From Shinella lacus (GTDB lineage: Bacteria; Pseudomonadota; Alphaproteobacteria; Rhizobiales; Rhizobiaceae): a DNA stretch of 64,000 nucleotides. The stretch lies in contig NZ_WHSB02000015.1 in assembly GCF_010994755.1 (NCBI RefSeq), forward strand, positions 62,001-126,000, read 5' to 3'. Position numbers and translations under genes: made by a program. Shown piece by piece: positions 46,490 to 49,905 of the stretch. Below the pieces are notes generated by a model. That model saw only the letters and a program-made list of their open reading frames with translations, ran no database searches and was not told the DNA's origin. Numbering within the stretch: the stretch's first letter is position 1; each line of letters starts with the position of its first letter.

Positions 46490-47524
46490 TCAGGCAGCCT
46501 GCTTCTTCGCCTTGATCAGGCCGCGGGCGACGAGCAGTTCCGCGATCTGGATGGCGTTGAGCGCGGCACCCTTACGCAGGTTGTCGGAGACGACCCAGAT
46601 GTTGAGGCCGTTTTCGACGGTTGCGTCCTCGCGGATGCGCGAGATGTAGGTGGCGTCTTCACCGGCCGATTCGTACGGGGTGATGTAGCCGCCGTTCTCG
46701 TGCTTGTCGATGACTTGGCAACCCGGCGCCTCGCGCAGGATCTCGCGGGCCTCGTCCGCCGTGATCTCGTTTTCGAACTCGATGTTGACCGATTCGGAAT
46801 GACCGATGAAGACGGGGACGCGCACGGCCGTGCAGGTCACCTTGATCTTCGGATCGAGGATCTTCTTGGTCTCGGCCAGAACCTTCCACTCTTCCTTCGT
46901 GTAGCCGTCTTCCATGAACGAATCGATGTGCGGAATGACGTTGAAAGCGATGCGCTTGGTGAACTTCTTCGATTCGACCGGATCGGCGACGAAGACGGCG
47001 CGGGTCTGCTGGAAGAGCTCGTCCATGCCTTCCTTGCCGGCGCCGGAGACGGACTGGTAGGTCGAGACGACGACGCGCTTGATCGTGGCGCGGTCATGCA
47101 GCGGCTTCAGCGCGACGACGAGCTGGGCGGTCGAGCAATTGGGGTTGGCGATGATGTTCTTGCGGGTAAACATCGTGATCGCGTCAGGGTTCACTTCCGG
47201 AACGACAAGCGGAACGTCGGCGTCGTAGCGCCAGGCCGAGGAATTGTCGATGACGACGCAGCCCTTGGCGCCGATCTTCGGCGAATACTTCTGCGAAACC
47301 GTGCCGCCGGCCGACATCAGGCAAATATCCGTGTCGGAGAAGTCGTAGTTTTCCAGGTTCTGGACCTTCAGCGTCTTGTCGCCGAAGGAGACTTCGGTGC
47401 CGAACGAACGGCTGGACGCAAGGGCGACGACTTCGTCGGCCGGGAAGCCGCGCTCAGCCAGGATGTTCAGCATTTCACGGCCGACATTGCCGGTCGCGCC
47501 GGCGATTGCGATCTTGAAACCCAT
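46490..47524 (-). CDS. asd: Aspartate-semialdehyde dehydrogenase
   Basis: 344 residues. Asd reduces aspartyl phosphate to aspartate semialdehyde, the branch point to lysine/diaminopimelate, threonine and methionine. The N-terminal fold FKIAIAGATGNVGREMLNIL (about 2-21), CLMSAGGTVSQKYSPK, IDNSSAWRYDADVPLVVPEV, the catalytic Cys in IIANPNCSTAQLVVAL (near 129) and the His of PHIDSFMEDGY are typical. The ATG at 47524 is preferred: GAGAG is spaced 7 bases before it, while the ATG at 47530 is too close. A 39-codon leader ORF and hairpins lie upstream. A terminator follows. Confidence 0.95.
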   Translation of the reverse strand: MGFKIAIAGATGNVGREMLNILAERGFPADEVVALASSRSFGTEVSFGDKTLKVQNLENYDFSDTDICLMSAGGTVSQKYSPKIGAKGCVVIDNSSAWRYDADVPLVVPEVNPDAITMFTRKNIIANPNCSTAQLVVALKPLHDRATIKRVVVSTYQSVSGAGKEGMDELFQQTRAVFVADPVESKKFTKRIAFNVIPHIDSFMEDGYTKEEWKVLAETKKILDPKIKVTCTAVRVPVFIGHSESVNIEFENEITADEAREILREAPGCQVIDKHENGGYITPYESAGEDATYISRIREDATVENGLNIWVVSDNLRKGAALNAIQIAELLVARGLIKAKKQAA

Positions 47525-47551
47525 ACTCATGCTCTCTTTCTCTGTCTCTCC

Positions 47552-47613
47552 GCGGGTTCTGGAGGGAAACCCGCCGGCCTCGACGCGGGTTTCGGTCCCC
47601 GGCCATACCGGGG
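47552..47613 (-). promoter_or_regulatory. Candidate attenuator hairpins before asd
   Basis: On the minus strand, in order: hairpin A CCCCGG-TATGG-CCGGGG (47613-47597); hairpin B AAACCCGC/GCGGGTTT (47592-47567); hairpin C GCGGGTT/AACCCGC (47574-47552). B and C share the segment 47567-47574, so only one can form. No long T tract follows, so control could act on translation or via Rho. This is inferred from pairing by eye. Confidence 0.55.
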
Positions 47614-47635
47614 AGAGAGCGGTGGGCCAGAGACG

Positions 47636-47755
47636 TCAGACGGTTTTCGTCGTCGTTTTGGCCGTTGTTTTGGAAATGGATGCGCAATGGCGAACCCGTC
47701 CGGCGTTGAAGGCCGGATCGATCATGCTGGCGATGGTAAGACCAAGGCGGGACAT
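47636..47755 (-). CDS. Thr/Lys-codon-rich 39-residue leader peptide of asd
   Basis: ATG at 47755 follows AAGGAACCGCC, a good ribosome binding site. The ORF has 39 codons and ends TGA at 47636. Its last 11 codons read K-T-T-A-K-T-T-T-K-T-V: six Thr and three Lys, the products of the pathway that Asd feeds. A CTTGAC-N17-TATTCA promoter would start the RNA about 16 nt before the ATG, and asd begins 111 nt after the stop. The layout matches leader peptides of amino-acid attenuators such as thrL in E. coli, but I know of no description of this one. Translation is not shown by sequence. Confidence 0.6.
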   Translation of the reverse strand: MSRLGLTIASMIDPAFNAGRVRHCASISKTTAKTTTKTV

Positions 47756-47777
47756 GGCGGTTCCTTTGCGTGGGTGC

Positions 47778-47806
47778 TGAATACGCTCATCTCACGAAGA
47801 GTCAAG
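47778..47806 (-). promoter_or_regulatory. Candidate promoter of the asd leader transcript
   Basis: Minus strand CTTGAC (47806-47801), 17-bp spacer, TATTCA (47783-47778). CTTGAC-N17 is the rhizobial housekeeping pattern; the -10 matches TATAAT in 3 of 6. Confidence 0.5.
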
Positions 47807-48015
47807 CCTTGCGCGTGCGCAAAGCGGCGCTTCGTCGAAGACGTCCATCTTCGACCAAAGTCTTACACCCAAAGTCATAAGCCCAAAGCAGCGCTGCTGT
47901 CACAGTTCTTTTTCTGCCATCCTTCCAATCAGGCGCACCCTGTCCTGGGTTTTAAGGGAGAAACTCCGGACGATCATGGGCTGCCCGACACGCCGTTTTT
48001 GTGGAGGACAATGAA
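47807..48015. other. Intergenic region before the MHS-type MFS gene, with 14-bp phased direct repeats
   Basis: CCAAAGTC at 47855 and 47869 and CCAAAGC at 47883 start exactly 14 bp apart. The rest of the 209-bp stretch holds no gene I can support. GGAGG at 48003-48007 is the ribosome binding site of the next gene. Confidence 0.5.
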
Positions 48016-49905
48016 ATGGCAAATGTTTCGACAGTGGGCGCGGCCAAATCGACGCCCATGACCGGCGAGCAGAAGAAGGTGATCTTCGCCTCTTCGCTCG
48101 GCACTGTTTTCGAATGGTATGATTTCTACCTTTACGGTTCCTTGGCGATCTATATTGGCGCCACCTTCTTCAGCCAGTATCCTGAAACGACGCGCAATAT
48201 CTTCGCGCTTTTGGCCTTTGCTGCGGGCTTCCTCGTGCGTCCGTTCGGCGCGCTGGTGTTCGGTCGCCTCGGCGACCTCGTCGGCCGCAAGTATACCTTC
48301 CTCGTCACGATCCTGATCATGGGCTTCTCGACCTTCGTGGTCGGCCTTCTGCCCGGTGCTGCCACCATCGGCATCGCCGCTCCGATCATCCTGATCATCC
48401 TGCGCATGCTCCAGGGCTTGGCGCTCGGCGGTGAATATGGCGGTGCCGCGACCTACGTCGCCGAACACGCCCCGGACGGCAAGCGCGGTTACTTCACCTC
48501 GTGGATCCAGACGACGGCGACGCTCGGCCTGTTCCTCTCGCTGGTGGTCATCCTGCTGGTCCAGTTCATTCTCGGCAAGGAAGCCTTCGCCGAATGGGGC
48601 TGGCGCATTCCGTTCCTGCTTTCGGCCATCCTGCTCGGCGTTTCCGTCTGGATCCGTCTGAAGATGAACGAATCGCCGGCCTTTGCGAAGATGAAGGAAG
48701 AGGGCAAGGGCTCCAAGGCACCGCTGACGGAAGCCTTCGGCCAGTGGCGCAATGCCAAGATCGCGCTGCTCGCGCTGTTCGGCGCCGTCGTCGGCCAGGC
48801 CGTCGTCTGGTATTCCGGCCAGTTCTACGCGCTGTTCTTCCTGACCGGCGTACTGAAGGTGGACGGCCAGTCGGCCAATATCATGGTCGCCTGCTCGCTG
48901 CTCATCGGCACCGGCTTCTTCGTGCTGTTCGGCTGGCTGTCGGACAAGATCGGCCGCAAGCCGATCATCATGGCCGGCCTGCTGCTCGCCATGCTCACCT
49001 ACTTCCCGCTCTTCAAGGCCATGACCTGGGCCGGCAACCCGGCGCTCGCACAGGCGCAGGAATCGATCCGCGCGACGGTCACCGCCGCCCCGGGCGATTG
49101 CAAGTTCCAGTTCAACCCGACGGGCACGGCGAAGTTCACCACCTCGTGCGATATCGCGACGTCGTTCCTGACCCGCAACTCGGTGCCCTATGATGTCGTC
49201 GCCACGGCGGCTGCCGGCACGGCTGCGACCGTCAAGATCGGCGACAAGACGATCAACAGCTACGACGCCATCGCTTCGGCCGACCAGGCCAAGGCGCTCG
49301 ACGCCGCCTTCCAGAAGGAAACCAACCTTGCCCTGCAGGCCGGCGGTTACCCGCTGGTGCGCGGCGCGATCAAGGTGCCGGACTCCAAGCTCGACGCCTT
49401 CGTCGCAGCCAACCCGGAACTCGCGCTCGATGCCGCCGCGATCCGCGCCGGCGAGAAGGCGACGACGCCCGCTGCCGACCTCGTCACCGCCAAGCTGCTG
49501 ACGGCCGAAGAAGCCGCTGGCGTCACCGAGATGGCGGTCTACACGGTCGACAAGGGCGGTGCCTTCACCATGGTCGCCGATCCGGCAAATGTGAACTGGA
49601 TCATGACCATCGCCGTGCTGACGGTCCTCGTGATCTACGTCACGATGGTCTACGGCCCGATCGCCGCCCTGCTGGTCGAACTCTTCCCGACCCGCATCCG
49701 CTACACCGGCATGTCGCTGCCCTACCATATCGGTAACGGCTGGTTCGGCGGCCTGCTTCCGGCAACGGCCTTCGCAATGAGCGCTGCCCAGGGCGATATC
49801 TACTACGGCCTCTGGTATCCGATCGTGTTCGCCGGCATCACGCTGGTCATCGGTCTCCTGTTCCTGCCGGAAACCAAGGACCGCGACATCCACGCCATGG
49901 ATTGA
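48016..49905 (+). CDS. MFS transporter, metabolite:H+ symporter-like, with a large periplasmic insertion
   Basis: 629 residues, about 150-200 more than usual for the MHS family. Helix 1 segment SSLGTVFEWYDFYLYGSLAI (about 27-46) is the MHS signature; the loop 2-3 motif GRLGDLVGRK and the loop 8-9 motif GWLSDKIGRKP are clear. The next helix IIMAGLLLAMLTYFPLF is followed by a soluble stretch (about residues 350-520) with a Cys pair (APGDCKF and TTSCDIA), then IMTIAVLTVLVIYVTMVYGP and the MHS block LFPTRIRYTGMSLPYHIGNG. Placement after helix 9 puts the insertion in the periplasm, where the two Cys could form a disulfide. The substrate is unknown. GGAGG is spaced 8 bases before the ATG. Confidence 0.88.
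   Translation: MANVSTVGAAKSTPMTGEQKKVIFASSLGTVFEWYDFYLYGSLAIYIGATFFSQYPETTRNIFALLAFAAGFLVRPFGALVFGRLGDLVGRKYTFLVTILIMGFSTFVVGLLPGAATIGIAAPIILIILRMLQGLALGGEYGGAATYVAEHAPDGKRGYFTSWIQTTATLGLFLSLVVILLVQFILGKEAFAEWGWRIPFLLSAILLGVSVWIRLKMNESPAFAKMKEEGKGSKAPLTEAFGQWRNAKIALLALFGAVVGQAVVWYSGQFYALFFLTGVLKVDGQSANIMVACSLLIGTGFFVLFGWLSDKIGRKPIIMAGLLLAMLTYFPLFKAMTWAGNPALAQAQESIRATVTAAPGDCKFQFNPTGTAKFTTSCDIATSFLTRNSVPYDVVATAAAGTAATVKIGDKTINSYDAIASADQAKALDAAFQKETNLALQAGGYPLVRGAIKVPDSKLDAFVAANPELALDAAAIRAGEKATTPAADLVTAKLLTAEEAAGVTEMAVYTVDKGGAFTMVADPANVNWIMTIAVLTVLVIYVTMVYGPIAALLVELFPTRIRYTGMSLPYHIGNGWFGGLLPATAFAMSAAQGDIYYGLWYPIVFAGITLVIGLLFLPETKDRDIHAMD

Follow-up and report, generated by a model that had tools for sequence, protein, structure and literature searches.

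The gene for aspartate-semialdehyde dehydrogenase (asd) in the Shinella lacus window (the whole 64,000-nt stretch of DNA that was analyzed) is preceded by a short open reading frame (ORF) that ends in a run of threonine and lysine codons, and this leader is very likely a leader-peptide attenuator of asd. The attenuator is probably controlled by the ribosome and would sense the charging of threonyl- and lysyl-tRNA, with starvation raising asd expression, most likely at the level of translation. The whole leader/asd arrangement is on the minus strand, and comprises the following elements.

47778 to 47806, minus strand: putative promoter CTTGAC-N17-TATTCA, read from the sequence (CTTGAC at 47806-47801, TATTCA at 47783-47778)
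47761 to 47767, minus strand: leader ribosome binding site AAAGGAA, read from the sequence
47636 to 47755, minus strand: leader peptide ORF, 39 amino acids plus stop codon, its tail conserved in relatives
47639 to 47671, minus strand: regulatory codon run KTTAKTTTKTV (six Thr, three Lys), the last 11 leader codons
47625 to 47634, minus strand: s1, GUCUCUGGCC, immediately 3' of the leader stop, forming the 5' side of the long hairpin
47611 to 47619, minus strand: s2, CUCUCUCCC, loop at the tip of the long hairpin, with complementarity to s4
47595 to 47604, minus strand: s3, GGCCGGGGAC, forming the 3' side of the long hairpin and also able to pair with s2
47596 to 47614, minus strand: P2, short alternative hairpin (s2:s3), 47614-47607 pairing with 47603-47596
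47566 to 47593, minus strand: hairpin B of the earlier note, 47593-47585 with 47574-47566
47552 to 47574, minus strand: hairpin C of the earlier note, 47574-47568 with 47558-47552
47545 to 47551, minus strand: s4, GGAGAGA, partner of s2, 5' of the asd Shine-Dalgarno
47531 to 47537, minus strand: AGAGAGC, Shine-Dalgarno-like stretch of asd, an alternative partner of s2 (GCUCUCU) in folds
46490 to 47530, minus strand: asd, aspartate-semialdehyde dehydrogenase (TIGR01296, 472 bits against a cut-off of 324)

Comparison of starts places the asd start that is common to relatives at 47524 (ATGGGTTTC). An earlier note, made from the letters of the window, had described the promoter-like hexamers, the 39-codon ORF with its ribosome binding site, the six Thr and three Lys among the last 11 codons, and three hairpins downstream, and all of these are present on the minus strand at the positions given above (B and C share 47567-47574, and the third hairpin is at 47614-47596). 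Judged from its sequence, CTTGAC-N17-TATTCA is a plausible promoter for the leader. Of 80 named relatives, 68 have a TTGAC-N15-19-TA pattern 5' of the leader, and in 45 of those 68 it lies 166-170 nt before the leader stop; a strict sigma-70 consensus scan returned no promoter at the site. The divergent neighbor of the leader (48001-49905, plus strand) is a 634-aa ORF resembling MFS transporters, in which the last membrane segments are separated by a long non-membrane stretch.

Conservation and codon choice of the leader tail

We gathered 267 asd loci and analyzed 253 of them (13 had no located start and one contained an N). Upstream ORFs ending 60-215 nt before asd were scored for Thr/Lys richness over their last 12 codons, with Ile counted half and a threshold of at least 5.5. 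A tail reaching this score was found in 207 of the 253 asd upstreams, compared with four of 759 dinucleotide shuffles and none of the 253 reverse complements, so the suggestion that a short ORF with a Thr/Lys codon run is kept upstream of asd in relatives was borne out; two lineages with short or weaker leaders score under the threshold, and thus 207 may be low. By set, the tail is present in 108/122 genomes of the family, 79/79 of the closest named relatives, 17/28 other genomes of the order and 3/24 other genomes of the class, counts that are not independent because the named and unnamed sets overlap (the same contigs occur in both). The 80 named loci are the best 80 of 592 confirmed and so are biased to close relatives.

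Comparison also shows that it is the codon run that is conserved. In 98 representatives the last 10 leader codons are 47% Thr and 22% Lys, versus 9% and 3% for the preceding 12 codons, and the N-terminal part varies freely among species while the tail is kept. The third codon position is the most variable in seven of the last eight leader codons, the exception being the last codon, which is mostly Val (GUC in 97% of tail Val codons). Thr and Lys swap places among tails, as does Ile in Agrobacterium and Hoeflea-like leaders; taken with the variable third positions, this indicates that the amino-acid composition of the tail is what is kept. The order and number of T, K and I differ by lineage (e.g., KTKTTKTV, TTIKTKTTI, KTTKTTKTTA), and AKTTTKTV is almost fixed across much of Rhizobiaceae. 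Shorter leaders, with the stop 72-95 nt before asd, were seen in L112, L115, L148, L171, L176, L190 and similar loci; these lineages have very short peptides (MRTTIKTKTTI) or RSLTKTSIS-like tails that mix Thr, Lys, Ile and Met.

The product of Asd is the precursor shared by lysine, threonine, methionine, isoleucine and the diaminopimelate of the cell wall. By the tail counts and the TIGR01296 assignment of asd, the locus therefore has a short ORF with codons for products of the downstream gene's own pathway. Within its own genome the codon run is unique: the 7.04-Mb sequence to which the window belongs has a single match to the pattern AARACNACNACNAARACN, at this leader (a reversed control pattern also matches once), no second copy of the leader RNA was found in that genome (best other match E 0.06), and the leader peptide has no match in phages. 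In the hom, lysC and thrC families, no comparable leader was found at 35 loci in seven genomes; the best chance tails there score 5.5, all in loci of one genome. In S. meliloti, the ORF before asd is annotated as a hypothetical protein and ends RKTTAKTTTKTV. Incidentally, one 3.7-Mb S. meliloti record that carries asd (L312, CP090106.1) is titled plasmid pSymB, yet looks chromosome-sized and is possibly mislabelled.

Codon choice in the tail is unlike that in asd itself. Across 129 loci, AAA makes up 82% of leader-tail Lys codons versus 5% of asd Lys codons, and the AAA share is greater in the leader than in asd at 124 of 128 loci. Within the window, the five long ORFs around the leader together have four AAA and 72 AAG codons. 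For Thr, ACG makes up 57% of codons in the leader tail vs. 30% in asd. The AAA bias may reflect tuning of the leader to a single Lys tRNA, or a requirement that the RNA be A-rich and unstructured.

These patterns bear on two readings in which codon-run decoding has no role. An arrest peptide that senses a metabolite would suit the position of the run directly before the stop codon and the near fixation of AKTTTKTV in much of Rhizobiaceae, but we rate it as very unlikely, given that lineages differ in how many T, K and I they have and in how these are ordered (composition is kept, whereas order and length vary, and no fixed peptide sequence of the kind expected for an arrest peptide was found) and that the AAA preference points to decoding. 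Still harder to credit is an ordinary small protein with incidental RNA helices downstream: the S. meliloti protein is detectable when tagged (PMC10117765), but only the tail of the leader is conserved, not its N-terminal part, and the helices covary, both in comparisons of own with swapped partners and in an alignment, as described below.

Alternative helices downstream of the leader

Past the leader stop, the order is s1, s2, s3, a variable hairpin (at the position of B) and s4. Pairing of s1 with s3 gives a long hairpin whose loop of 9 nt is s2, and pairing of s2 with s3 gives the short hairpin P2. Three helices (s1:s3, s2:s3 and s2:s4) emerge from comparison of relatives as well-supported predictions. 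Pairings within a species were compared with those obtained after exchanging one partner between species, using 64 representatives of less than 80% similarity and leader-bearing upstreams only; the similarity filter reduces the phylogenetic dependence of such tests and does not remove it. The s1:s3 energy was -21.9 kcal/mol for own partners versus -17.5 kcal/mol for swapped ones (p=4e-11), and the contiguous Watson-Crick helix of s2:s4 was 6.95 versus 5.96 bp (p=4e-6), reaching at least 7 bp in 43 of the 64 (about 22 expected). The s2:s4 signal is also found in the 23 lineages whose s2 lacks CUCUCC (6.61 vs. 5.08, p=4e-4), with s2/s4 pairs such as CGCUUCCC/GGGAAGCG (L030), UCUCUUCCCG/CGGGAAGAGA (L131) and CCCUCACC/GGUGAGGG (L095). 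An earlier s2:s4 duplex test with wide windows, on 54 representatives, gave p=0.01.

In alignment A1 (60 of 82 references, with the 22 most divergent left out), 83.6% of cells are paired in the long hairpin and 93.7% in P2, and in both cases none of 500 shuffles reached the value. Both hairpins outperform slid versions of themselves in cells paired and in covariation score, and RNAalifold predicted s1:s3 unprompted. Pairs in which both partners changed are not unusually numerous in this alignment, as their number was reached by 47/500 shuffles for the long hairpin and 76/500 for P2, and the long hairpin slid by +2 has 43 such cells versus 41 unslid. A covariation test of our own making, run column by column on 122 sequences against a tree-based null, found no significant pair (best E 2.6), because there is very little variation in s2 and s4 and a single deep split is dominant. 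Taken alone, the RNA from the window has no unusual folding stability (z -1.31 and -1.34), and thus the case rests on comparison.

The three helices are not all compatible with one another. In the 42 of the 64 representatives that have a clear s2:s4 helix plus the long hairpin, the bases complementary to s4 are 29% paired in the long-hairpin fold versus 78% in the fold with s1 masked (p=9e-7). Thus, s2:s4 can coexist with the long hairpin, in the form of a loop-to-tail pseudoknot, whereas P2 largely excludes it. On this basis we infer that s2:s4 forms a pseudoknot with the long hairpin. Nested folds of the Rhizobiaceae core also allow P2 alongside GCUCUCU:AGAGAGC, the latter being the Shine-Dalgarno stretch. 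Two other pairings were considered and set aside: that of the Shine-Dalgarno with the s1/s2 side is not significant across lineages (own vs. swapped p=0.07), nor is that of s4 with the bases just upstream (p=0.74).

The dependence of s1:s3 on ribosome position was modeled by moving the ribosome edge stepwise relative to the leader stop and folding the RNA from that edge to s3. With the edge at -12 to +1, s1:s3 pairs average 7.1-8.0; the mean is 6.0 at +4, 3.3 at +7, 0.56 at +13 and zero at +16. A ribosome on a stop codon should protect to about +13, and one in the codon run to about +7 or less. Taken together, the long hairpin would be prevented by a ribosome at the stop and permitted by one at most positions within the run. 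When s1 is exposed, 48/64 representatives have the long hairpin as their best predicted fold, and the other 16 do not prefer it. Comparison and folding models, with a negative single-column test, therefore describe mutually exclusive helices that would be chosen by ribosome position. This part of the earlier proposal, mutually exclusive helices downstream of the leader, is supported with s1:s3 against s2:s3 (plus s2:s4) as the helices concerned, and is not supported for the B and C pair that had been named as the switch.

The B/C switch is a feature of very few sequences. A perfect B arm with its complement recurring downstream was found in four of 170 distinct sequences at 6 nt and three of 170 at 7 nt, so we rejected it. 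At 6 nt, the four are L001 (the window), L003, L017 and L031, the last being Shinella fusca; L001 and L003 belong to a single genus. When G-U pairs were accepted, in a looser and cruder test, the result was 12/82, and perfect arms of at least 6 nt occur at a B-like place in 88/170 sequences. Hairpin C is not general but confined to the window and close relatives; it is in the window's own equilibrium fold and thus may contribute in this lineage. As a separate observation, the hairpin between s3 and s4 (B, 47593-47566, minus strand) recurs in relatives with very different sequence; the loop of the hairpin at this position often contains GGCC, which could pair with s1.

Proposed mechanism, output and alternatives

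In the mechanism that we propose, the leader would be translated first. When Thr and Lys are ample, the ribosome would reach the stop codon and cover s1 (in the first dozen bases past the stop), s3 would join s2 to form P2, and s4 and the asd ribosome-binding region would be left to other pairings. When Thr or Lys is scarce, the ribosome would stall in the codon run, and the free s1 would pair with s3 to form the long hairpin. Its loop, s2 (9 nt), would dock on s4 as a pseudoknot, or would at least be kept off the Shine-Dalgarno, and asd expression would rise, most likely at translation.

The level of control is suggested by three features. There is no long T tract, as had been noted from the sequence, and no terminator-like site on the minus strand of 47400-47900; an intrinsic terminator (hairpin plus T tract) before the gene, as in attenuators of the thrL/trpL type, was not found. 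An 8-nt window with at least five T between leader stop +20 and asd is absent in 52 of 64 representatives and present in 12. In addition, s4 stands at a steady distance from the asd ATG (median -24.5 to -19, i.e., about -25 to -19), whereas the distance from leader to asd spans 72 to 144 nt. Together, these favor control of asd translation, and we infer that asd is controlled translationally rather than transcriptionally. The opposing view is that P2, hairpin B, or the C-rich s1-s2 stretch acting as a Rho site ends transcription before asd, by intrinsic or Rho-dependent attenuation. Transcription is where classical attenuators act, the 12/64 representatives with a T-rich window would be in keeping with it, and B has a short T stretch in a few lineages (L101, L165). 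We nevertheless think it improbable, given the minus strand free of terminator-like sites, the 52 representatives lacking a T-rich window and the constant s4-to-ATG distance.

The cost of opening the asd start is 4.79 kcal/mol with the long hairpin versus 5.27 kcal/mol with s1 masked, a difference that is not significant (p=0.18); among 49 cases, opening is cheaper with the long hairpin in 22 and costlier in 18. At equilibrium, exposure of s1 makes the start slightly harder to open (about 6.6 vs. 6.0 kcal/mol). Thus, the opening costs do not bear out the most straightforward thermodynamic expectation, namely that the asd start becomes open on stalling, and neither the output nor the sign is evident from folding energies. 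As for occlusion of the start region, s2 does pair near the asd start, the opening cost shows no significant difference, and s4 is upstream of, and not on, the Shine-Dalgarno in most lineages. In a reading with the opposite sign, the long hairpin with s2:s4 would block asd initiation and a ribosome at the leader stop would free asd through P2, so that asd would be coupled to successful translation of Thr and Lys codons. This would fit the compatibility of s2:s4 with the long hairpin, its exclusion by P2, and the slight rise in opening cost when s1 is exposed, but the gene for a biosynthetic enzyme would then be lowered when its products are scarce, unlike in known amino-acid leaders, and s4 is 5' of the Shine-Dalgarno in most lineages; we consider it unlikely. 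The sign stated at the outset, in which starvation would raise asd, is adopted by analogy with known amino-acid attenuators.

More tentatively, the preferred mechanism can be given a specific form, a pseudoknot gated by the leader peptide. Stalling at Thr or Lys codons would free s1 to build the long hairpin, and the loop would dock 5' of the asd Shine-Dalgarno, such that the position of a ribosome in one ORF would set the translation of the next, free of any terminator. One run would read two aspartate-family amino acids, Lys by way of a codon that asd almost never uses, and the device would be ancient, extending across Hyphomicrobiales and a few other alphaproteobacterial families. We regard this full form as possible rather than probable.

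Relation to known systems

The earlier note knew of no report of such a leader, a statement now superseded. SEP5 of S. meliloti, which lies in the 5'-UTR of a gene there named the aspartate dehydrogenase gene, carries six Thr codons and three Lys codons toward the 3' end, is translated according to Ribo-seq and Western analysis, and was proposed to be a leader peptide (PMC10117765). From this description, SEP5 would be the S. meliloti ORF before asd that ends RKTTAKTTTKTV: its Thr/Lys codon content, its 5'-UTR place and the leader-peptide proposal all match the asd leader. The two accounts differ in that SEP5 is described as conserved in Sinorhizobium only, whereas the asd leader is family-wide and occurs in 17/28 other genomes of the order, and in that the available text of PMC10117765 gives no RNA switch for SEP5. 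Our literature search found no report of a regulatory test, wider conservation or an RNA switch, a prediction in the standard survey (Vitreschak 2004) being possible. In the text available for each, PMC2965389, PMC4833913 and PMC1273637 do not mention asd, and PMC12218461 has none of the terms sought. The wide conservation of the leader and the RNA switch thus appear to be new, and the peptide itself has been noticed before in one genus.

S. meliloti also has a trp attenuator with the leader peptide peTrpL (PMC7298713; PMC10117765). Like the asd leader, peTrpL is an alphaproteobacterial leader peptide of an amino-acid gene; as far as the available text describes it, it differs in having other codons and in being a transcription attenuator, whereas the asd leader is without a terminator. 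Covariance models in Rfam gave no matches at gathering thresholds in the window, and in 47480-47830 only two matches, far below gathering.

If the proposal is true, a large bacterial order steers the asd branch point through joint decoding of Thr and Lys codons, and does so without the terminator that usually serves as the search handle for attenuators, which would explain why such leaders are missed. It would also assign a role to a small protein that has already been observed in S. meliloti.

In thrL of E. coli and relatives, a leader with regulatory codons precedes Thr-pathway genes and the position of the ribosome picks the hairpin. The asd leader is similar in having a putative regulatory codon run and hairpins that would be selected by the ribosome, but has Lys besides Thr, precedes asd, and has no intrinsic terminator that we could find; moreover, its run reaches the stop codon, an extra helix extends to the asd start region, and Rfam has no match to it. 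In translational attenuators of the ermC type, a ribosome stalled in the leader alters access to a downstream start site. Stalling in the asd leader would come from amino-acid shortage, and occlusion of the asd Shine-Dalgarno is only putative, but the principle proposed for asd, a stalled leader ribosome that changes access to the downstream start, would be the same.
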